Source: Pseudoalteromonas denitrificans DSM 6059 (GTDB lineage Bacteria; Pseudomonadota; Gammaproteobacteria; Enterobacterales; Alteromonadaceae). From it: a stretch of 64,000 nucleotides of DNA. Below the pieces are notes generated by a model that made no database searches, was not told where the DNA came from, and saw nothing but the letters and a program-made list of their open reading frames with translations. The stretch lies in NCBI RefSeq assembly GCF_900112265.1, contig NZ_FOLO01000001.1, forward strand, positions 269,963-333,962, written 5' to 3'. This document shows positions 4,758 through 54,258 of this stretch, in pieces. The position numbers and the translations under genes are program-made. Position 1 is the first letter of the stretch; every line of letters starts with the position of its first letter.

Positions 4758-4817
4758 GATATAGATTTCCTTTATCTTTAATTTGAAATCTAGTGTACCT
4801 TAAATAAATATAATGTA

Positions 4818-4836
4818 AATGATAATTATTATCATT
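4818..4836 (-). promoter_or_regulatory. Fur box
   Basis: AATGATAATTATTATCATT is a perfect 9-1-9 palindrome and contains the full 7-1-7 Fur consensus TGATAATnATTATCA without a mismatch. It lies 61 bp before the start of the small membrane protein on the minus strand. The mechanosensitive channel on the other side points toward the site with its 3' end, so the small gene is the only obvious target. Confidence 0.9.
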
Positions 4837-4927
4837 AAGTGTTTTTATTTTAACTTTTTTGTTATTTACTGATTCTAGGGGGTAATACATTTGAGTTTAA
4901 ATAAGGTACATTTATATTTTATGTATT

Positions 4928-44488: not shown

Positions 44489-44520
44489 GTTCGTCATTGT
44501 TAGTAAAAAAGAGAGTTATC

Positions 44521-44949
44521 ATGTATAGAATAGGTGAATTAGCAAAGCTGTTATCTGTTTCTACAGATACATTAAGGTATTATGAAAAGCATGGTTTATT
44601 AATGCCATCGGGTCGAAGTCATTCTGGTTATCGCTTATACAATGAAGCTTGTTTACAATGTATGCAGTTTATTGTCAGCGCTAAAAGTGTTGGTTTTAGC
44701 TTAAACGAAATAAAAGAATTATTATCAATTAAAGTTGATAAAAATAGTCATAGTTGTGGTGAGGTTAAGTCATTTACGTTACAAAAAAAACAGCAAGTTG
44801 AAGTCAAAATAGCTGAATTAACCCGGTTTAAAGATTCGTTACAGTTATTATCGGATGCCTGTTGTGGTGGTGATGAAGTGGCTGTTCATTGCTCAATTTT
44901 ATCTGCTTTGGAGAATATAGATGATACAGATAGTCGAATTATCCAATAA
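44521..44949 (+). CDS. zntR: MerR-family metal regulator, ZntR-like
   Basis: The 142-residue protein starts MYRIGELAKLLSVSTDTLRY and ends with the ZntR-like metal region DACCGGDEVAVHCSILSALE. A cysteine in SHSCGEVKS is also conserved in ZntR. These match zinc-type MerR sensors, which twist the elongated promoter when bound to zinc. An in-frame start at 44497 would add eight residues, but GAGAG lies just before 44521. The downstream efflux gene overlaps the last 29 bp. Metal preference (zinc or copper) cannot be settled from the sequence. Confidence 0.9.
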   Translation: MYRIGELAKLLSVSTDTLRYYEKHGLLMPSGRSHSGYRLYNEACLQCMQFIVSAKSVGFSLNEIKELLSIKVDKNSHSCGEVKSFTLQKKQQVEVKIAELTRFKDSLQLLSDACCGGDEVAVHCSILSALENIDDTDSRIIQ

Positions 44950-46009
44950 TTTTTGGCAATTATTTTTAATATCTGCACCTTGGTTATTATTAGGTTTGTT
45001 TGTTGCTGGATTGATCAAAGTTTATTTACCAAAAGATTTTTTAATTAGACATTTAGGTGAAGAAGGTTTTGTTTCTACTCTTAAAGCTGCATTAATAGGG
45101 GCACCTATGCCATTGTGTTCTTGTGGGGTAATTCCTGCGGCTTTGGGACTTAGGAGAGCGGGTGCCTCAAAAAGTGCAACTACGGCATTTTTAGTTTCAA
45201 CGCCTGAAACTGGCGTTGACTCTATTTCTGTTTCTTATGTTTTACTAGGACCTTTTATGGCTATTGTTAGACCGATTGCAGCTGTTACAAGTGCAATTGT
45301 GTCAGGATTTCTAGTGGGGCGAGATAAAGAAAAATCAACCGCCGATAATACAGTGTCACACATACAAAAAAAGTCATGCTGTAGCACTAAAGAAGAGAAA
45401 AAAATAACTGATAAATTATCTTGCTGTAGTGATACAAAGCAAACTTTAAAACCATCCAATTTTGATCGTTTAATTGAAGCTTTACGTTTTAGTTGCACTA
45501 AATTATTACAAGATACAGCAAAGTGGCTATTGATTGGATTATTTTTTGCTGCATTGATACAAACATATGTCCCTGCAGACTTTTTCACTTTGTGGGGGAA
45601 TGGCATATTTGCGATGATAGTCGTTATCTTAATTAGTATTCCTATGTATATATGTGCGACAGCTTCAACACCTATTGCAGCAGGGTTATTATTATCAGGC
45701 GTATCCCCTGGTGCTGTTTTGGTCTTTATGTTAGCGGGACCGGCCACAAATATCGCGACTTTAGGTGTAGTATTTAATGAGCTTGGTAAACGCGCAGTAA
45801 TGGCTTATTTAACCGGTGTAATAGGTGTTGCTATTTTATTTGGTCTATTAACTGATTATTTGGTTAATAGATTTTCAATTCAAGTTGCACCTATGTTGCG
45901 TGAAGAAAGTCATATTTTACCTCATTGGTTTATGCAATTTACGGCTTTATTACTGATTGTTCTGTTGGTGCGATTAGTTGTATTGAAGTTTAAAAATAAA
46001 AAAAGTTAA
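44921..46009 (+). CDS. SO_0444-type Cu/Zn efflux permease (DUF318/ArsP-like)
   Basis: The 362-residue inner-membrane protein has about eight helices in two halves. The first half carries APMPLCSCGVIPAALGLRRA, the second MYICATASTPIAAGLLLSG. A hydrophilic loop of about 60 residues between them holds two double-cysteine motifs (KKSCCSTKEEK and KLSCCSDTKQ), which could bind metal. This matches the SO_0444 group of Cu/Zn exporters. The overlap with zntR (29 bp) and the MerR-type promoter support metal export. It ends at a clear hairpin. Confidence 0.88.
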   Translation: MIQIVELSNNFWQLFLISAPWLLLGLFVAGLIKVYLPKDFLIRHLGEEGFVSTLKAALIGAPMPLCSCGVIPAALGLRRAGASKSATTAFLVSTPETGVDSISVSYVLLGPFMAIVRPIAAVTSAIVSGFLVGRDKEKSTADNTVSHIQKKSCCSTKEEKKITDKLSCCSDTKQTLKPSNFDRLIEALRFSCTKLLQDTAKWLLIGLFFAALIQTYVPADFFTLWGNGIFAMIVVILISIPMYICATASTPIAAGLLLSGVSPGAVLVFMLAGPATNIATLGVVFNELGKRAVMAYLTGVIGVAILFGLLTDYLVNRFSIQVAPMLREESHILPHWFMQFTALLLIVLLVRLVVLKFKNKKS

Positions 46010-46035
46010 TATTTAAATAACCTGTTAGCATAATA

Positions 46036-46074
46036 CAAAAAAGGTACAAGCATATATGTTTGTGCCTTTTTTTT
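46036..46074 (+). terminator. Terminator of the zntR-efflux operon
   Basis: Imperfect hairpin: AAAAAGG / CCTTTTT ends with a long T run to 46074, the middle being ACAAG-CATATATG-TTTGT-like pairing. It begins 27 bp after the efflux gene stop. Confidence 0.7.
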
Positions 46075-46089
46075 GTTAAATAATGTAAA

Positions 46090-46104
46090 TGAAAGTGATT
46101 ATCG
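46090..46104 (+). promoter_or_regulatory. Fur-like site 1 before the imelysin operon
   Basis: TGAAAGTGATTATCG matches the 15-bp Fur consensus TGATAATnATTATCA in 11 of 14 specified positions. It is 79 bp before the imelysin start. Confidence 0.6.
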
Positions 46105-46146
46105 TTATTGATCTTGTTTTTATAAGTATATAGAATGCCGTGCAAA

Positions 46147-46161
46147 TAATATTAATTATCA
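46147..46161 (+). promoter_or_regulatory. Fur-like site 2 before the imelysin operon
   Basis: TAATATTAATTATCA matches the Fur consensus in 12 of 14 specified positions, with a perfect right half. It is 22 bp before the imelysin ATG. Confidence 0.65.
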
Positions 46162-46182
46162 TTTACATTTTAAGGGAACGTA

Positions 46183-47610
46183 ATGAAATTTTCTAAAAGT
46201 TTTGCATTGTCATTAGTTTGTGCTGCTATTTTATCTGGCTGTGGTGGAGACGATGGTAAAGACGGTACTAATGGCGCACAAGGTGATGCCGGTAAAGATG
46301 GTGTTAGTGTTTTTGTAACCACATCTGATGTCGTTAATACTAATGCACAACATGCTTATGCTGTTTATAGTGACTCACTTCTTGCTGCTAAAGCTTTAAA
46401 AGCGCAATTAGAAGTATTTGTTGCTGCACCTACTAATGAAAATTTCACTAAAGCGAAAGAAGCTTGGCTTGATGCTCGCGAACCGTATGGTGAGTCTGAA
46501 GTTTATCGTTTTCGCGAAGGTCCAATTGATAATTTAACAAAAAATGATGCGGGTGACTGGATCTTAGAACCAGAAGCTGGACCTGAAGGAGCGATTAATG
46601 CGTGGCCATTAGCAGAAGCCTTTATCGATTACACTATTGATATGGATGGCGCACAAAACCCTGAAAGCATAGCTTCAATTTCAGTCGGCGGAAATATAAT
46701 CTCTAATTTGGAAGAGTTTCCAGTAATCAATAAAGAAGTACTCAAATCTTCTTTTGGTGGTTTAAATGAGGCACAAGATGAAGCGAATGTTACTTCAGGG
46801 TACCATGCAATTGAATTCTTATTGTGGGGACAAGATTTAAACGAAGATGGCACATATACGGCAAATCGTGATTATTCAGCCGGATACCGTAAAGCATCTG
46901 ATTATTATACAGTCGAGAATGATTTTGAAGGTAAAGTGGGTACGTGTACTTCAGGTGAAGCAGGTTCTGACAATGCTTTATGTATTCGTCGTGGCCAATA
47001 CTTGATTGCAGCCGCAGATTTACTAATTGATGATTTACAAGCGGTTACAAATGCTTGGGCACCAGGTTCTGGTTTTCATTACAATGAATTTACAAAAGCT
47101 GAAAATGCAAAAACATCTCTTGCTAAAATATTAGAAGGAATGGGCCGCTTAAGTTATGGTGAATTAGCGGGTGAGCGCATGAGTATTGCACTTCGTACGG
47201 ATTCACAAGAAGATGAGCATTCATGTTTTTCTGATAATACCCATCGTGATATTTACTTGGATGCTAAAGGTATACAAAATGCATTTTTAGGGAGTTATAC
47301 TCGTGATACAGGTGAAAACTTACAAGGTGCAAGTATTTATGATTTATTAGTTGTTGAAGGTCATCCTGAACTTGCTAATAAATTACGTTCGGCACTTGAG
47401 TTAACTATGGCCAAAGCTGCTGTTATTGATACAAATGCAAAAATGGGAACTTCATTTGATTTACAAATCCAGTTAAATGAATTTAAACCTGCAGTAACAG
47501 AAACGATTAAAGCTTTACAGTTTCAAACTGATGTCATCAATGAAGCGATCACTGCTCTTGAAGTTACAACAAGTGACTTAAAGCAAGATACCGAGGAATT
47601 TGGCGGTTAG
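46183..47610 (+). CDS. Imelysin-family lipoprotein (iron-regulated, first copy)
   Basis: The 475-residue protein has a lipoprotein signal ending in LSGCGG, then a collagen-like linker (KDGTNGAQGDAGKDG). The imelysin domain follows with the GxHxxE motif GYHAIE (206-211, His208). Imelysins bind iron or act as insulin-cleaving peptidases (IcmP); in most species they are Fur-regulated. Two Fur-like sites lie before this gene. It is the first gene of a run whose other members are two di-heme proteins, a second imelysin and a DUF1513 protein. A terminator follows, so the rest may be expressed less. Confidence 0.85.
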   Translation: MKFSKSFALSLVCAAILSGCGGDDGKDGTNGAQGDAGKDGVSVFVTTSDVVNTNAQHAYAVYSDSLLAAKALKAQLEVFVAAPTNENFTKAKEAWLDAREPYGESEVYRFREGPIDNLTKNDAGDWILEPEAGPEGAINAWPLAEAFIDYTIDMDGAQNPESIASISVGGNIISNLEEFPVINKEVLKSSFGGLNEAQDEANVTSGYHAIEFLLWGQDLNEDGTYTANRDYSAGYRKASDYYTVENDFEGKVGTCTSGEAGSDNALCIRRGQYLIAAADLLIDDLQAVTNAWAPGSGFHYNEFTKAENAKTSLAKILEGMGRLSYGELAGERMSIALRTDSQEDEHSCFSDNTHRDIYLDAKGIQNAFLGSYTRDTGENLQGASIYDLLVVEGHPELANKLRSALELTMAKAAVIDTNAKMGTSFDLQIQLNEFKPAVTETIKALQFQTDVINEAITALEVTTSDLKQDTEEFGG

Positions 47611-47626
47611 TTATTATATTTAGTTT

Positions 47627-47659
47627 AAAACCCATCAAATAACTTTGATGGGTTTTTTT
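47627..47659 (+). terminator. Terminator or attenuator inside the imelysin operon
   Basis: 13-bp perfect stem AAAACCCATCAAA (47627-47639) / TTTGATGGGTTTT (47644-47656), loop TAAC, then a T run. It sits between the first imelysin and the first di-heme gene. Confidence 0.9.
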
Positions 47660-47688
47660 GTTATTAGCTTTTTATTTATGGGCGTAAA

Positions 47689-49377
47689 ATGAAAAAGCAT
47701 ATTGTTACACTTTGCATACTGTCTAGTGTTTTTATTAGCGCATGTGGCGGTTCAGGTTCTTCTTCAGATAATTCTGACAATTCAAATAACAATGGTAATA
47801 CAGATACTAACGGTGGTGGCACTACTGTTGTTTTACCTGGACAACCAAAAGATGGTTTAGCACCTATTTCAGCACACACTCCAGATAAAAATGAGCATTT
47901 ATCTGGTGGAGAAGTCAGTACAAATGTATTTAATCAAGATGCATTTAGCCAATCAGCCAAGGTAATTCAAAGTGATTTTGAATTAGAAGGTGTATTTAAA
48001 GCAGGCGACCAATTATTTAGAACTCTGCACGATGGTCAAGGTCCTTTATTTAATAATGCAACTTGTCAGGGGTGCCATATCAAAGATGGTCGGGGTGAAG
48101 TCCCTAGAAATCCAAGTATGCCTATGACAAGCATGTTTTTAAGAATAAGTGATGATAAAGGTACTCCTGATATTATTTATGGTGATCAAATTCAAACCTT
48201 TGGCACTGTTGCTGATCATAATGAAGGGGCGTTACCAAAATATAATGGCGCTTTAAATGAAGGTTTAGCATATGGGGAAGCTTATGCCTTTGTGGAATAT
48301 GAAGTGATAAATGGCCAATTTAATGACGGTGAAGCCTACCAGCTTAGAAAACCAATTTATAAAGTAAAAGATTTATCATATGGTGATTTTAATGACTCTG
48401 TTCGTTTATCTCCTAGGGTTTCTCCATCTGTATTTGGTTCCGGTTTATTACATGCGATACCCGAAGATTACATTACTTCGTATGCTGACCCTGATGATAT
48501 AAATAATGATGGCATTTCAGGTCGTGCTGTTTATGTTGATGAGCCAATATCAAATGAAAATAAACTAGCGCGCTTTGGCTATAAAGCTGTAACAGCATCT
48601 GTATTACAACAAATATCAGGTGCATATCGTGGTGATATGGGGGTGACAAATATAGTTGCACAAGAGGAGCCCTGCACGTCAATGCAAGCAGCTTGCATCA
48701 ATAAAGCTGAACAAGAGAAAGATGATAGAGAAAACGGCTTGGATTTAAGCAAGCTATCATTGGCTCAAGTTGAGTTTTATAATCGACTATTAGCTGTGCC
48801 CCAGCGTAGAGGTTACAATGCTCAAACAAATACTTGGAATGCGGATGTACTTACAGGTCGTGAGTTATTCCATCAGGCACAGTGTATTTCATGCCATGTA
48901 CCACGCCATAAAACAGGCCAAGCTGAAGGGAGTTTATTAGGTGATGCTGGTTTATTAGATATTTCAGATACATCTACACCTATAGCGGCCTTAAGTGAGC
49001 AGGTTATTTATCCTTATACCGACTTACTCTTGCATGATATGGGAGGACACTGTCCTGAAATAACACGAGAAGATGATGAAGGAAATTCGTGTCTTTCGGG
49101 TTCACAGTGTTATTGGGTGCAAAAGTGTGAAGGCTTAGCGGATGATCGCCCTGAAGGAAGTGCAACTGGCACAGAATGGAAAACACCTGCGCTTTGGGGT
49201 TTAGGTTTAGTTCAAACTGTTAATCCAAATGCTACGTTTTTACATGATGGTCGTGCCCGTACTATTACCGAAGCAATTCTTTGGCATGATGGTGAAGCTA
49301 AAGCGGCAAAACAAAATTTTGTGGCTCTATCCAAAGCTGAGCGTACGCAATTGCTGACCTTTTTAGAGTCTCTTTAA
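47689..49377 (+). CDS. Di-heme oxidoreductase-like lipoprotein (DHOR, copy 1)
   Basis: The 562-residue protein has a lipoprotein signal (VFISACGG), an Asn/Ser/Asp-rich linker and two CxxCH haem sites: C126-x-x-C129-H130 (TCQGCHIKDGRG) and C399-x-x-C402-H403 (QCISCHVPRHK). Family landmarks FLHDGRARTITEAILWHDGE and LAFGRFGFKA-like segments are present. DHOR proteins are periplasmic and may reduce or oxidise iron or thiols. The next gene starts at its stop (TAATG at 49375-49379). Extra Cys residues sit near the C-terminus (HCPEI, NSCLSGSQC, QKCEGL). Confidence 0.9.
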   Translation: MKKHIVTLCILSSVFISACGGSGSSSDNSDNSNNNGNTDTNGGGTTVVLPGQPKDGLAPISAHTPDKNEHLSGGEVSTNVFNQDAFSQSAKVIQSDFELEGVFKAGDQLFRTLHDGQGPLFNNATCQGCHIKDGRGEVPRNPSMPMTSMFLRISDDKGTPDIIYGDQIQTFGTVADHNEGALPKYNGALNEGLAYGEAYAFVEYEVINGQFNDGEAYQLRKPIYKVKDLSYGDFNDSVRLSPRVSPSVFGSGLLHAIPEDYITSYADPDDINNDGISGRAVYVDEPISNENKLARFGYKAVTASVLQQISGAYRGDMGVTNIVAQEEPCTSMQAACINKAEQEKDDRENGLDLSKLSLAQVEFYNRLLAVPQRRGYNAQTNTWNADVLTGRELFHQAQCISCHVPRHKTGQAEGSLLGDAGLLDISDTSTPIAALSEQVIYPYTDLLLHDMGGHCPEITREDDEGNSCLSGSQCYWVQKCEGLADDRPEGSATGTEWKTPALWGLGLVQTVNPNATFLHDGRARTITEAILWHDGEAKAAKQNFVALSKAERTQLLTFLESL

Positions 49378-50798
49378 TGCGGCTCTTATATTTCATATTG
49401 ATAATGTTTTTATTGGCTGCATGTCAGCCAATAAAAAGTAATGATATTAATGTGCCTGAATTTGATATTAGTGAGTTTAAACCCGGTGGTGAGGCGACTT
49501 TAAAGCGCCTTAATACTCGGACTTTCATCCATCCATCTGGAAATTTATCCCTTGAAGATGAATTAGATTTTTGGGACGGTTTTTCATTTTTCAGAGATCC
49601 TTGGGTTGCAGCTCCAGCTGCTACAAAAGATAGGGATGGACTTGGGCCATTATTTAATGCGCGCTCTTGTAAGGCATGCCATTCCAGAGGTGGTCGTGGA
49701 AAGCTTCCTAATGTAGGAATAAGCAAACCTATGGCCTTGCTTATTCGTTTGGGTAATGAAAATAATGGTGCTGCTATTGATGAGAATTATGGTGGTCAGC
49801 TACAGCCATTTTCTATCACTTTGTCTCATCAGTCACTTTCAACTCCTATTAAAGGAGAGGCGGATGTTAAATTGCAATATCAAATGCTTGATGGTCAATA
49901 TTCAGATGGCACGCGTTATCAATTAAGAAAACCACACTATGATTTGGTGAATTTAAACTATGGTGAGCTAGCAGAGCATACAGTGCTATCTCCTCGTTAT
50001 GCGCCAGCAATTTATGGCATGGGTTTATTAGATGCAATAAAAGAGTCTGATTTATTAGCGTTGCAAGATATTACAGATGAAAATGCTGATGGTATTAGTG
50101 CTAAATATAATAAAGTACCTGATGTTTTAAATAATAAAATTGCCTTAGGACGCTTTGGTTTTAAAGCTTTACATCCGTCACTTGCGCAGCAAATTGCAGG
50201 TGCATTTGTAAATGATATTGGCATTACAAATCCTTTTTTTCAAACCGATACCTGTACTTATATACAAGTTGGTTGTCGTCAGAGATCAAAAATAGGGGGT
50301 CATGATAGTCAATTAGAAATCCCCGCTAAATTACATCAACTCACTGAGTACATGGGCCAACATGTAGCTGTTCAGCCTACACGTTCATTAAAAAATAAAA
50401 AAGCACAGCAAGGTCGCTCACTTTTTTATCAACTTAAATGCGATTCTTGTCATCAACCTAGTTTTAAAACTGATGATAATTATCCGGTAAAAGAATTAGC
50501 TGGGCAGAAAATTTGGCCTTATACAGATTTAGCTTTGCATGATATGGGTCCTGGTTTATCCGATGGGAAAGCTGAGTTTGAAGCGAATAAAAATGAATGG
50601 CGAACAGCACCGCTTTGGGGAATTGGTTTGCAAAACCGTATTCAAGGTTATCAAGCCTTTTTACATGATGGCAGAGCAAGGACATTAGAAGAGGCCATTT
50701 TATGGCATGGCGGCGAAGCAAAAGCCGCACAACAAAAATTTATAGCACTAGATAAACCTCAAAGAGAGGCACTTATCTTTTTCTTAAAACAGATATAG
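49377..50798 (+). CDS. Di-heme oxidoreductase-like lipoprotein (DHOR, copy 2)
   Basis: The 473-residue protein resembles the one before it, with a lipoprotein signal (FLLAACQ) and two CxxCH sites: C98-x-x-C101-H102 (SCKACHSRGGRG) and C355-x-x-C358-H359 (KCDSCHQPSFK). It lacks the extra C-terminal cysteines of copy 1. Start overlaps the previous stop, so translation is coupled. In Pseudomonas a similar imelysin cluster carries one DHOR gene, so two copies here are notable. Confidence 0.9.
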   Translation: MRLLYFILIMFLLAACQPIKSNDINVPEFDISEFKPGGEATLKRLNTRTFIHPSGNLSLEDELDFWDGFSFFRDPWVAAPAATKDRDGLGPLFNARSCKACHSRGGRGKLPNVGISKPMALLIRLGNENNGAAIDENYGGQLQPFSITLSHQSLSTPIKGEADVKLQYQMLDGQYSDGTRYQLRKPHYDLVNLNYGELAEHTVLSPRYAPAIYGMGLLDAIKESDLLALQDITDENADGISAKYNKVPDVLNNKIALGRFGFKALHPSLAQQIAGAFVNDIGITNPFFQTDTCTYIQVGCRQRSKIGGHDSQLEIPAKLHQLTEYMGQHVAVQPTRSLKNKKAQQGRSLFYQLKCDSCHQPSFKTDDNYPVKELAGQKIWPYTDLALHDMGPGLSDGKAEFEANKNEWRTAPLWGIGLQNRIQGYQAFLHDGRARTLEEAILWHGGEAKAAQQKFIALDKPQREALIFFLKQI

Positions 50799-50808
50799 AG
50801 AAGATAAA

Positions 50809-51945
50809 ATGAAAAAATTAGCATTAATGATTGCAATGAGCTTCGCACTAGTTGCATGTGGTGGCGGATCATCAAACTCAACAGAGGCTGTTGATACTAA
50901 CACCGGAAATGGGGGAACAGATACTGTTGAACCAGTAAAAACGAAAGAAGAAGCAATGATAGCTGTATTAACATCATTAGCTGATAATTATATTCTGCCT
51001 TCTTACAGCGATTTGGCTAATAAAGCTGATGAGTTTGAATCTGCAAGTATTGATTTTTGCTCGAATTCTAAAGCTGGAACTGCTGAGTTAACAAAATTAC
51101 GACAGAGTTGGCTAAGTTTGAGTTTAAGTTGGCAGCATACAAAGCCTGTAAAGGAAGGTATGGCTGACAATACTTTTGTGAATTCAAGAATGCAAACATG
51201 GCCAGAAAAAACGGCTATTTTAAGAGGAGTTGAAACGTTACTTGCAGCAGAGCCTCTAAATGAAATGGTCGTCTCTCAAACGCAAGATGGCGCGCAAGGC
51301 TTACCAGCTTTAGAGTATCTATTATATCCTGAGCTAGAAGCACAAAGTCTACTAATCGCCACTGATAAAGAAAAGCGCTGTCTTGCAGTCATGTCTATTG
51401 CAGCAAATGTTAAAGCCATAGTGCTTGAAATTAATACGTTATGGTTGCAAACAGGCGGTAATGAAAGGGCGCAATATATTAGTGGCTCAGAAGAGCAGAT
51501 AGAAAAACAGTTAACAAGTTGGTTTGTAGTACTTGAAGCTATTGTGGATGATAAAATAAATAAAGTATTAGCAGAGGGGATTCCTGGAATCGTTAAAAAT
51601 GCAGAGCAATATCGCAGTAAAACTTCTTTTGAAAGTATAAAGAAAAACGTAAAAGCACTTGAAGTTGTGTATTTAGGTGGCGATGGTTATGGTTTTGATG
51701 ATTACTTATTAGAAATTCATAAAAAAGCGGAGTTAGACAAAGTGATTAAAGCTGCTTTTATACAAGTGTATGCAGCTCTAAATAAATTGGATATATCATT
51801 AGAGCAAGCTGTTACCGATAATGTAACACGACAAGTTTTAGAAGAAATTACAACTAAGTTAACAGCACTTCGTACCATAATGACAACCGATTTTGTGCAA
51901 ACAACAGATTTTTATCCGCTAATAAATACAACTGATGGCGATTAA
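50809..51945 (+). CDS. Imelysin-family lipoprotein (second copy)
   Basis: The 378-residue protein has a lipoprotein signal (FALVACGG) and an imelysin domain. The usual GxHxxE motif reads GLPALE (164-169), so the histidine is replaced by proline (Pro166). This is typical of the second imelysin in known clusters and suggests a different metal site. It starts 10 bp after the second DHOR gene, and the DUF1513 gene begins just after its stop (TAAT-ATG). Confidence 0.85.
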   Translation: MKKLALMIAMSFALVACGGGSSNSTEAVDTNTGNGGTDTVEPVKTKEEAMIAVLTSLADNYILPSYSDLANKADEFESASIDFCSNSKAGTAELTKLRQSWLSLSLSWQHTKPVKEGMADNTFVNSRMQTWPEKTAILRGVETLLAAEPLNEMVVSQTQDGAQGLPALEYLLYPELEAQSLLIATDKEKRCLAVMSIAANVKAIVLEINTLWLQTGGNERAQYISGSEEQIEKQLTSWFVVLEAIVDDKINKVLAEGIPGIVKNAEQYRSKTSFESIKKNVKALEVVYLGGDGYGFDDYLLEIHKKAELDKVIKAAFIQVYAALNKLDISLEQAVTDNVTRQVLEEITTKLTALRTIMTTDFVQTTDFYPLINTTDGD

Positions 51946-51946
51946 T

Positions 51947-53032
51947 ATGAATCGTCGTGGTTTTTGTAAATCCATGCTGGCTTTTGCCGGCATAACCAAT
52001 TTACCTGCTTGTAATCTTTTAAAAGATAAACAATTTGCCAGTGCTTTTAATACTTTTGGCAATAAACATTTTATTGCCAAGTTAGATGAAAATGGCGCAA
52101 TTGTGACTCAGGTTGAAATCCCCTATAGAGGTCATGATTTGGCTCAAGTACCAAATCAAAAAAATCGTGTATTTGCATTTGCACGACGCCCTGGAAATAT
52201 GATTTTTGATATTAACTTAGAAGAGGGTACGTTAACTAATACGATAGAATCTCAAAAAGGTCGTCATTTTTATGGTCATGGCGTTTTTTCTTTAGATGGA
52301 CAGTTTTTATTTACACCTGAAAATGATTTTGAAAATCAAGTGGGAAAAATTGTTGTAAGGAATGTGAATGACTCTTCTGTTTTAGCTGAATATGATTCTG
52401 GTGGCGTTGGGCCACACCAATGTGCACTATTAAGTGACGGTATTACTTTAGTCATTGCAAATGGTGGTATCGCGACACATCCAAATCAGCCCCGTAAAAA
52501 GCTTAATATAGCCTCGATGAAACCAAATTTAACTTATTTAAATACACAAACGGGTGAAGTAAAAGCTCAGATCCTACCGCCTCATGATCAATTAAGTATT
52601 CGCCATTTAGATGTTAGTAAGCAAGATAAAGTTGTTGTAGGTATGCAATATCAAGGCAATAAACAAGATAAAGTACCTCTTATTTTTACACAGCAAGGTG
52701 ATAATGCTTTACAGGCTTGTGAAGTAGAGCAGGAGGTTTGGCAGCAAATGAATCAATATACGGCAAGTGTCTGTATTGATAATGCGTTAAATATTGCAGC
52801 TGTGAGTGCACCCAGAGGAAACTTAGTCAGTTATTGGGATTTGAATAACAATAAATATTTAGGTCAGTATCACAGTGCTGATTGTGCGGGGGTTGCTTTG
52901 GCTGATGATGGTTTTGTATTATCAAATGGTACAGGGGTGATCGAGCGCATTGTTGCTTTATCTAAAACACCTTTAAAACAAAAGCGTAGTGCGGGAATTA
53001 AATGGGATAATCATATGCTAGCACTTGTTTAA
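51947..53032 (+). CDS. DUF1513 family protein
   Basis: The 361-residue protein starts with an arginine-rich signal of twin-arginine or lipoprotein look (NRRGFCKSMLAFAGITNLPAC) and continues with a seven-bladed propeller-type sequence (RGHDLAQVPNQKNRVFAFAR, KGRHFYGHGVFSLDGQFLFT, GGVGPHQCALLSDG). DUF1513 proteins occur at the end of imelysin clusters and are probably periplasmic. I chose the ATG at 51947, one base after the preceding stop; an ATG at 51935 would overlap it. Function unknown. The operon's last gene. Confidence 0.8.
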   Translation: MNRRGFCKSMLAFAGITNLPACNLLKDKQFASAFNTFGNKHFIAKLDENGAIVTQVEIPYRGHDLAQVPNQKNRVFAFARRPGNMIFDINLEEGTLTNTIESQKGRHFYGHGVFSLDGQFLFTPENDFENQVGKIVVRNVNDSSVLAEYDSGGVGPHQCALLSDGITLVIANGGIATHPNQPRKKLNIASMKPNLTYLNTQTGEVKAQILPPHDQLSIRHLDVSKQDKVVVGMQYQGNKQDKVPLIFTQQGDNALQACEVEQEVWQQMNQYTASVCIDNALNIAAVSAPRGNLVSYWDLNNNKYLGQYHSADCAGVALADDGFVLSNGTGVIERIVALSKTPLKQKRSAGIKWDNHMLALV

Positions 53033-53067
53033 AATATAAGAGCTATATTGAACTGGTAAGAGATGTT

Positions 53068-53097
53068 TACCTTGGCTAAGAGTACTAAGTCAAGGTA
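53068..53097 (+). terminator. Possible terminator after the imelysin operon
   Basis: 10-bp stem with one G-T wobble (TACCTTGGCT 53068-53077 / AGTCAAGGTA 53088-53097), 10-nt loop; the following sequence is only moderately T-rich. Confidence 0.45.
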
Positions 53098-53127
53098 GAC
53101 TATGGTCCATTTTATTTTATTAATGCA

Positions 53128-54258
53128 TTGAGTCAAACTGACGTGAGCCAAAAAGAAGATAAATTTGTAGATATTCGTCCTTATAATGATAGTGAAGTGC
53201 CCGCGGCATTAGAGCGCTTGATTAATGATGATGATTTTATTAACTTAATTGCAAAACATAACATTCCTAAATGGTTATCGCCTTTTTCATTTATTACTAA
53301 GCCTTTATTAAAAAAACAATTAGCTAAAAAATGGCTGAAATTAAATACAGTCAAAAAATTACAAGCTGAAGTTTATAAATACTTAGGTTTAGTCATAAAA
53401 AAAACGACATCTCAGGTTACTTTTTCGGGGCTTGATAAGCTAGATAAGTCAAAATCTTACCTTTTTATTTCTAACCATAGAGATATTGCGCTTGACCCTG
53501 CGCTTTTAAATTGGGGCATGTTTTCTCATGGAATGGATACTGTGCGCATCGCTATTGGTGATAACTTATTGCAAGTACCATATATTACTGAACTAATGCG
53601 ATTAAATAAGAGTTTTATTGTAAAGCGCTCAATAAAAGCACCAAAAGAAATGTTTAAAGCATTATCGCACCTCTCAGCTTATATTTTTGATTCAGTCAAT
53701 ACAGGTAATTCTGTCTGGATTGCACAAAAAGAAGGAAGGGCTAAAGATGGTGATGACTATACAGATCCTGCCTTACTCAAAATGATTCAGTTGCAAGGTC
53801 GCAAGCAAAAACTGAGTTTTGAAGAGTATGTTCGAAAGTTAAATATTGTGCCTGTTTCTATTTCTTATCAATTTGAACCATGTGATATTGCAAAGGCAAA
53901 TGAGCGTTTTCATAAAGATAAATATGGTGAATATCAAAAGCAGGAAGGTGAAGATATGGATAGTATAATGGAGGGCTTTAGAGCAAATAAAGGTCACGTA
54001 CATATGGCTTTTGGGCAACCTATTGTTGATGGGTGCAGTTCTGCTGAAGCATTAGCACAAACCATCGACCAGCAAATATTATCATCTTTTTATTTACATC
54101 CTGGAAACTATATAGCGGCTAATCATAATGTGCTTGATGTAAGCGATATTGATAAAAAACAGTTTGAACAGCGTATGATACAAGTGCCAGATGAGTTAAA
54201 GGAAATTGTATTAGGCATATATGCTAAACCTTTAGAGAAACAGCTCAAACAGTTATAA
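53128..54258 (+). CDS. PlsC-like lysophospholipid acyltransferase
   Basis: The 376-residue protein has the acyltransferase domain (about 90-310) with the start of the catalytic block written NHRDIALD, so the spacing is HX5D and not HX4D. Other motifs: RSIKAPKEMFKALSHL, QKEGRAKDGDD (EGRA substrate motif). No clear membrane helix. The start is uncertain: TTG at 53128 was kept because no better site is visible, and GTG at 53143 is an alternative. The acceptor lipid is unknown. It is a single gene ending at a terminator. Confidence 0.8.
   Translation: MSQTDVSQKEDKFVDIRPYNDSEVPAALERLINDDDFINLIAKHNIPKWLSPFSFITKPLLKKQLAKKWLKLNTVKKLQAEVYKYLGLVIKKTTSQVTFSGLDKLDKSKSYLFISNHRDIALDPALLNWGMFSHGMDTVRIAIGDNLLQVPYITELMRLNKSFIVKRSIKAPKEMFKALSHLSAYIFDSVNTGNSVWIAQKEGRAKDGDDYTDPALLKMIQLQGRKQKLSFEEYVRKLNIVPVSISYQFEPCDIAKANERFHKDKYGEYQKQEGEDMDSIMEGFRANKGHVHMAFGQPIVDGCSSAEALAQTIDQQILSSFYLHPGNYIAANHNVLDVSDIDKKQFEQRMIQVPDELKEIVLGIYAKPLEKQLKQL

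Follow-up and report, generated by a model that had tools for sequence, protein, structure and literature searches.

A 64,000-nucleotide stretch of the genome of Pseudoalteromonas denitrificans DSM 6059 (contig NZ_FOLO01000001.1; hereafter the window, numbered from its first letter) carries five genes, all on the forward strand between positions 46183 and 53032, which encode in order an imelysin (imelysin-1), two di-haem oxidoreductases (DHOR1 and DHOR2), a second imelysin (imelysin-2) and a DUF1513 protein. Judged by content and order, this operon is a well-supported member of the IrpA/ICMP type, in a variant with tandem DHOR genes: an exported imelysin with a GxHxxE motif comes first, and is followed by DUF1111/DHOR (here two), a GxxxxE imelysin and DUF1513. 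One DHOR is the common form of the operon; two are the fixed form in Pseudoalteromonas and a few others. The operon is a conserved variant of a known one and is ordinary within its genus. A preliminary description of the same DNA had given this gene order, strand and coordinates, with which Pfam agrees, and had proposed kinship to the icmP-type operon, which gene content and order bear out. To that description we add a hairpin behind imelysin-1, a four-cysteine insert in DHOR1, the replacement of a putative inter-haem tryptophan in both DHOR copies and an invariant histidine.

Distribution and divergence of the tandem oxidoreductases

DUF1513 was found in 31 of 147 genomes searched (that of the window included), 18 of them within the genus, and two adjacent DHOR genes are the sole layout found in Pseudoalteromonas (18 of 18 typed loci, again with the window). 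The 30 loci besides the window comprise tandem pairs in all 17 from the same genus and in three of one other family (f16), and single DHOR genes in ten, drawn from five other families. When 99 Pseudoalteromonas genomes were searched for DHOR, an adjacent pair turned up in 21, namely the 18 typed loci and three more in which the other operon genes were not typed; the remaining genomes hold other kinds of DHOR protein, or none. With DHOR1 as query, the best 80 of 179 loci divide into 68 single and 12 tandem, the latter from 11 Pseudoalteromonas and one metagenome-assembled genome of the Cellvibrionaceae; 11 of the 80 loci lie in genomes already present in the 30-locus survey. A class-wide draw from the Gammaproteobacteria matched DUF1513 in 26 of 369 genomes, 22 of them over the cut-off (own genome included). 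The 20 loci typed from this draw, to which five weak DUF1513 matches do not belong, include 15 with one DHOR, three with none in the stretch examined, one with two separated DHORs (L154) and one tandem pair in another genus of the same family (L155). The Pseudomonas loci examined end in DUF1513; PA4373 of P. aeruginosa is a DUF1513 protein.

The claim in the preliminary description that relatives usually have one DHOR is therefore right overall, though two are the rule in this genus. Of the condition named there as refuting its proposal, a tandem layout that proves common and has a known function, one half holds: the tandem is the sole form found in Pseudoalteromonas and is old, but has no known function. 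Our searches of the open-licence PMC literature turned up no mention of a tandem-DHOR operon, although the genomic-context figure of PMC3143127 may depict one. A tblastn search with DHOR1 against plasmids gave 77 records, every one below 60% identity.

Each of the two DHORs contains exactly two CXXCH motifs: CQGCH (48064-48078) and CISCH (48883-48897) in DHOR1, CKACH (49668-49682) and CDSCH (50439-50453) in DHOR2, all on the forward strand, as are the operon features given below. A conserved LHDMG motif lies between the second haem motif and the HDG motif of DHOR1, and is followed directly by an insert (49051-49128) that bears C455, C468, C474 and C480. The four cysteines are present in 24 of 24 DHOR1 sequences compared and, by eye, in L076_DH1; none of the 23 DHOR2 and 75 single DHORs set beside them has the insert columns (L076_DH1, L076_DH2 and L041_DH2 are excluded from the conservation counts). 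An RDPW..AP stretch ahead of the first haem is missing in DHOR1 and present in DHOR2 and the single DHORs.

In a tree of 125 DHORs, the DHOR1 (25 sequences), DHOR2 (25) and single DHORs (75) are each set apart by a single branch; its SH-aLRT value is 100, 98 and 88, respectively. The tree was built by a quick method from rows above 300 bits of the 30-locus and 80-locus surveys (125 of 144, identical cores having been removed; the class draw was left out), and the Cellvibrionaceae pair has long branches. Because DHOR1, DHOR2 and single DHORs form separate branches, the pair is old. Tandem loci likewise cluster by their imelysin-1 proteins, with weak support (78/61), in a tree thinned to 70 of 112 rows, and by their DUF1513 proteins, at 95, in a quick tree thinned to 86 of 117 rows; these groupings suggest inheritance of the operon as a unit.

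Two observations on DHOR genes elsewhere in the genus may be recorded here. In one Pseudoalteromonas relative (L049; G038:C6:307999-308248) a TAG codon interrupts DHOR1 in the C-terminal haem domain, with the frame of DHOR2 open. In 11 Pseudoalteromonas genomes the C-terminal part of DHOR is found, too, within very long open frames (843-1806 aa), for example at G049:C1:1049784-1050620; these encode a different, multi-domain DHOR protein.

Predicted structure and export of the five products

All five products match their Pfam families well over the curated cut-offs. DHOR1 (562 aa; 47689-49377) and DHOR2 (473 aa; 49377-50798) match PF06537 with 287 and 315 bits. The model of DHOR1 (pLDDT 86.1, pTM 0.87) has as its best match the gamma subunit of hydrazine synthase (5c2v_C, Z 14.5, with 235 residues aligned at 3.7 A), followed by YhjA, bacterial cytochrome c peroxidases (bCCP), MacA, a MauG-like copper-homeostasis protein and MauG, with Z down to 9.4. 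Forty-eight chains reach a Z of at least 8; among the matches listed, all 34 entries belong to the di-haem peroxidases, to MauG and its like, to YhjA or to hydrazine synthase gamma. Foldseek returned a single match at E 0.001, again 5c2v_C, and a second look with VIA recovered the whole family. As modelled, DHOR1 has the bCCP/MauG fold. The PF03150 (CCP_MauG) profile gave no match to DHOR1 at E 0.001, a single-sequence search for solved relatives of the DHORs or DUF1513 yielded none that were useful, and profile searches gave weak bCCP and hydrazine synthase matches.

To characterise the haem surroundings the DHORs were set against 14 CCP/MauG-type proteins from the bacterial family to which the window belongs (a subset of 30 loci fetched) and against the solved Shewanella bCCP, and were aligned by HHalign. 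At position HDG+14, counted from the histidine of the HDG motif, the DHORs have His in all 124 rows with a residue there. The CCP/MauG-type proteins have Tyr in 11 of 12 segments (those of L171 and L166 are missing from the comparison) and Thr in L176; Tyr is found in L166 by HHalign, and the Shewanella bCCP segment has Met. HHalign pairs the His of DHOR1 with Tyr, and places a two-residue gap opposite DHOR2 and a one-residue gap opposite the single DHORs. The C-terminal haem is probably bis-His ligated, rather than Met/His or Tyr/His, and this remains a prediction because HHalign leaves gaps for DHOR2 and the singles; M451 of LHDMG is an alternative candidate ligand in DHOR1.

The distal Gln-Pro-Glu triad is altered in the DHORs: Gln (Q308) is retained and an Asp (D316) is found in all 125 rows, as is the Gln, but Pro is gone, and the Asp stands in a shortened loop, two residues nearer than the usual Glu of CCP/MauG-type proteins. 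The putative inter-haem Trp position (W, with Q ten residues later) is occupied by W in 72 of 75 single DHORs. In DHOR2 it is F in 24 of 25 (Phe in the window) and Y in one; in DHOR1 it is Y in 14, Q in ten and W in one of 25. The HHalign alignment takes in this stretch only in the case of DHOR2, and the pairing for DHOR1 and the singles rests on the DHOR alignment together with the match of the Shewanella bCCP in the profile search. What the Met/Tyr ligand, the Gln-Pro-Glu triad and the tryptophan between the haems do in bCCP, MauG and BthA is set out in PMC6405878; that these roles carry over to DHOR is something that we infer.

Imelysin-1 (475 aa; 46183-47610) matches PF09375 (Peptidase_M75/imelysin) with 223 bits and reads as an ICMP-type lipoprotein. 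Its GxHxxE motif (GYHAIE in translation, 46798-46815) is conserved, H208 and E211 occurring in every one of the 25 tandem-type rows; W95, Y102, W141, W215 and W292 are present in all 25 of these rows and in 99-100% of 87 single rows (13 loci are left out of the imelysin-1 counts). The nearest solved chain is 7xrx, an 'insulin-cleaving metalloproteinase outer membrane protein' (3.8e-63). Imelysin-2 (378 aa; 50809-51945; PF09375, 122 bits) reads as a lipoprotein of the IPPA/PA4372 type, with GxPxxE in the form of GLPALE (no His) and 3pf0 as nearest solved chain (8.3e-12). The DUF1513 protein (365 aa; 51935-53032; PF07433, 326 bits) is modelled as a seven-bladed beta-propeller (pLDDT 92.5). Its matches are generic, 977 of 977 aligned chains having a Z of at least 8, and are uninformative on function; they include the hydrazine synthase beta subunit (5c2v_B, Z 30.6). 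A search of the open-licence PMC literature found no papers on DUF1513.

Imelysin-1, DHOR1, DHOR2 and imelysin-2 of the window fit a simple lipobox pattern, and a twin arginine stands close to the N-terminus of DUF1513, so that five exported products, four of them lipoproteins, as first proposed, is correct as a prediction. The same lipobox pattern is found in 20 of 25 DHOR1 rows, but in only 9 of 25 DHOR2 rows.

The genome has a third imelysin, on contig C66 (L064:7035-16208), flanked by a DUF4856 lipoprotein on one side and by two TonB-dependent receptors on the other, together with a fatty-acid-hydroxylase-family gene. This is likely to be a second metal-uptake locus of the genome; it is without a DHOR, since the DHOR search of the genome matched only the window's contig, C51.

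Promoter-like site, hairpin and neighbouring genes

Control of this operon by Fur is likely, because it has been published for the same operon in P. aeruginosa (PA4370-PA4373) and V. cholerae (VC1264/VC1266) (PMC3143127). A Fur-like site (site 1, 46091-46109) matches the consensus at 15 of 19 positions and overlaps by two bases the -35 hexamer of a promoter-like site, TTGATC-17-TAGAAT (46108-46136). The latter has 9 of 12 matches, to consensus only, and promoter-like matches are not enriched in the region (20, against a shuffle mean of 26.0). A second, weaker site (site 2, 46142-46166) lies downstream of the -10 and matches at 14 of 19. When the upstream region was shuffled 300 times with dinucleotides preserved, two shuffles scored as high as site 1; sites of the quality of site 2 are common in the window (20 entries with at most five mismatches). 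The two Fur-like sites of the preliminary description accordingly differ in standing: the first stands out, and the second is not significant alone. No Fur-consensus site with three or fewer mismatches was found inside the operon.

By eye, a box resembling site 1 recurs at the same position in many orthologues, and a stretch resembling site 2 in L037, L041, L042, L043 and L065. A Fur-like box stands out at the 5% level in 11 of 25 orthologous upstream regions, a count weakened by start codons that were assumed to lie further upstream than they do in several orthologues (L046, L047, L049, L060 and L072 among them). The window's best Fur-consensus matches are elsewhere, at 4815-4839, where they have three mismatches and overlap on both strands; they are flanked, by eye, by an HD-GYP-like gene and a small mechanosensitive-channel-like gene, with no obvious iron gene adjoining.

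Genes 2 to 5 abut or overlap. DHOR1 and DHOR2 have one base in common, the spacing from DHOR2 to imelysin-2 is 10 bases, and the listed frame of DUF1513 overlaps imelysin-2 by 11 bases, an overlap that a Met four codons further on would abolish. Between imelysin-1 and DHOR1 is a gap of 78 bases, which contains a terminator-like hairpin of 13 pairs followed by a T run (47627-47656). The 100 bases past the imelysin-1 stop codon were scanned with all lengths and a threshold of -8 kcal/mol or better, for loci in which imelysin-1 and DHOR are adjacent, in the same orientation and at most 700 bases apart, with 12 duplicate loci, L076 and L154 dropped. A hairpin is present in 23 of 25 tandem loci (33 of 500 shuffles) and in 41 of 74 single-DHOR loci (146 of 1480 shuffles); the single loci include many closely related Pseudomonas and are not 74 independent cases. 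A scan limited to even lengths undercounts (11 of 27 tandem and 34 of 86 single loci). The sequence of the stem varies between clades, and the hairpin itself is retained. The simplest reading is partial termination, by which imelysin-1 would be made in excess of the other products. A named RNA element in the gap was also considered and rejected, no Rfam match being found in the window at the gathering threshold.

The operon is preceded by genes for a MerR-type regulator and an ArsP-type permease and followed by an acyltransferase gene. The MerR-type gene overlaps the ArsP-type gene (44497-46009, directly upstream of the operon), and the two probably form an independent metal or metalloid resistance unit. 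The ArsP-like protein is the sole permease among the eight open reading frames (ORFs) of 44497-54258.

Proposed function of the operon and comparison with known systems

On balance, and by a modest degree of confidence, we favour a Fur-repressed operon for iron acquisition at the envelope, in which the imelysins hold iron, the DHORs perform one-electron chemistry and the tandem pair represents a specialised split. The promoter at about 46108-46136 would be freed of Fur when iron is limiting, and part of transcription would end at the hairpin past gene 1, leaving imelysin-1 in excess over the other four products. Imelysin-1 would take up iron, or an iron complex, through GxHxxE at the envelope; DHOR1 and DHOR2, with their c-type di-haem centres, would act by one-electron steps on that iron or on the imelysins, iron being the presumed substrate and the direction of electron flow likewise presumed. 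Imelysin-2 and the DUF1513 propeller may be their partners in docking or transfer. What was one step in the ancestor would, in the tandem form, have been divided between two specialised enzymes.

In favour of this reading are the protein families, the iron regulation published for the same operon elsewhere, the Fur-like box, the hairpin, the fold of DHOR1, the Trp replacement and the four-cysteine insert, and also EfeM, an M75 protein described in PMC9174327 as having kept approximately 1.5 Fe per molecule. Several results weigh against it. A Fur-like box is not distinct at the 5% level in 14 of the 25 orthologous upstream regions, and in L075, one of the 11 significant regions, the best site is elsewhere. 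Two of the 25 tandem loci and 33 of the 74 single ones have no hairpin that reaches the threshold. The pairing of His for Tyr by HHalign holds for DHOR1 only. Families of the EfeU/FTR1, Feo and TonB-receptor types are unmatched in the eight ORFs of 44497-54258, and in the open-licence PMC literature no experiments on a tandem-type operon were found. In thermofluor assays the imelysins PIBO (GxHxxE) and IPPA (GxxxxE) were without specific iron or haem binding (PMC3143127).

We nevertheless favour one-electron chemistry on imelysin-held iron over both a plain peroxidase activity and a MauG-like modification of partner proteins. The first of these alternatives, which we consider unlikely, is that the DHORs are periplasmic peroxidases that guard against Fenton chemistry during iron uptake, with the imelysins as iron buffers. 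The bCCP fold and the retention of Gln and an acid near the distal pocket are consistent with such a role, and a DUF1111 protein is listed as peroxide-induced and RirA-dependent in Dinoroseobacter shibae (PMC8007024). However, the acid is an Asp and stands two residues closer than does the Glu in CCP/MauG-type proteins, the Pro is missing, the predicted bis-His haem is unlike that of bCCP, and PF03150 is unmatched.

Less probable still is maturation in the manner of MauG or MbnH, in which each DHOR, with peroxide or O2, would oxidise a Trp or Tyr of a partner (an imelysin or the propeller) and the pair would serve two partners. Methylamine dehydrogenase contains a propeller, as DUF1513 is predicted to be, and MbnH modifies MbnP. 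MauG chains from methylamine dehydrogenase complexes match the DHOR1 model (Z 11.5-12.2), as does a MauG-like copper-homeostasis protein (6e1c, Z 12.4); candidate target residues exist in the near-invariant W95, Y102, W141, W215 and W292 of imelysin-1, and Q308 and D316 are kept throughout the DHORs. Yet plain peroxidases of the same fold class match with equal or better Z, the distal Pro is missing, 24 of 25 DHOR1 and 25 of 25 DHOR2 have another residue in place of the putative inter-haem Trp, and the propeller matches are generic. Moreover, single-DHOR loci also carry two imelysins, which makes one enzyme per imelysin unnecessary. A more specific version has the twin DHORs as iron-regulated, bis-His variants of MauG/MbnH, each oxidising a residue of one imelysin or of DUF1513, with the DHOR1 cysteines tuning or gating the reaction; we hold it to be slightly more doubtful again, but if it were true, an iron site would be built post-translationally only under iron scarcity. 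That the tandem arose by a recent duplication, with two nearly redundant copies and no functional significance, as adjacent genes of one family might suggest, is very improbable: the DHOR tree contradicts a recent origin (separate branches, SH-aLRT 100, 98 and 88), neither copy has been lost in the 18 same-genus DUF1513 loci (though DHOR1 of L049 has an internal stop), and the insert and the haem-neighbourhood residues show fixed differences.

The operon recurs across Gammaproteobacteria and is iron-regulated where studied. Two fixed and different copies allow the separation of functions that are merged in the single-enzyme form. Predictions that follow from the sequence are bis-His ligation of a haem, a substitute for the Trp between the haems, either disulfides or a metal site in DHOR1, and more imelysin-1 than the other products.

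Among known systems, EfeUOB/EfeM likewise joins an imelysin domain to a haem-enzyme partner; the haem enzyme here, however, is a c-type di-haem protein and not DyP. An Efe-type transporter was rejected as a candidate, there being no FTR1-type EfeU permease among the eight ORFs of 44497-54258. EfeB itself is called a DUF1111 di-haem peroxidase in one passage (PMC3143127) and is placed in the DyP family in another (PMC3577903), and the two haem enzymes seem to have been conflated in print. With the bCCP/MauG enzymes the DHORs share two c-type haem motifs, the overall fold (DHOR1) and an HDG motif and Gln at similar spacing. They differ in the absence of PF03150, in His rather than Met or Tyr at HDG+14, in the shortened distal loop without Pro and, in the tandem DHORs, in the replacement of the putative inter-haem Trp.

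Closer are the operons VC1264-VC1267 of V. cholerae and VSAL_I1786-I1785 of A. salmonicida, which combine irpA, a two-haem protein and a second imelysin-like protein and respond to iron. VC1264, VC1265 and VC1266-7 are tabulated in a study of iron regulation in V. cholerae, where VC1265, a 'probable thiol oxidoreductase with 2 cytochrome c heme-binding sites', is the sole DHOR named in the table rows concerned (PMC7600106), unlike the pair described here. VSAL_I1786/VC1264 and VSAL_I1785/VC1265 are given as transcripts common to the iron-limitation responses compared in PMC4324432, and VC1264 and VC1266 are termed members of the iron regulon in PMC5816637. VC1266 and PA4372 are named as IPPA-type imelysins (PMC3143127), the type of imelysin-2. 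In the icmP operon of P. aeruginosa the imelysins PA4370/ICMP and PA4372 (GxxxxE) stand, as here, around a DUF1111/DHOR protein, PA4371 (PMC3143127); where that operon has one DHOR, however, the operon of the window has two old paralogues, the first with a cysteine-rich insert.

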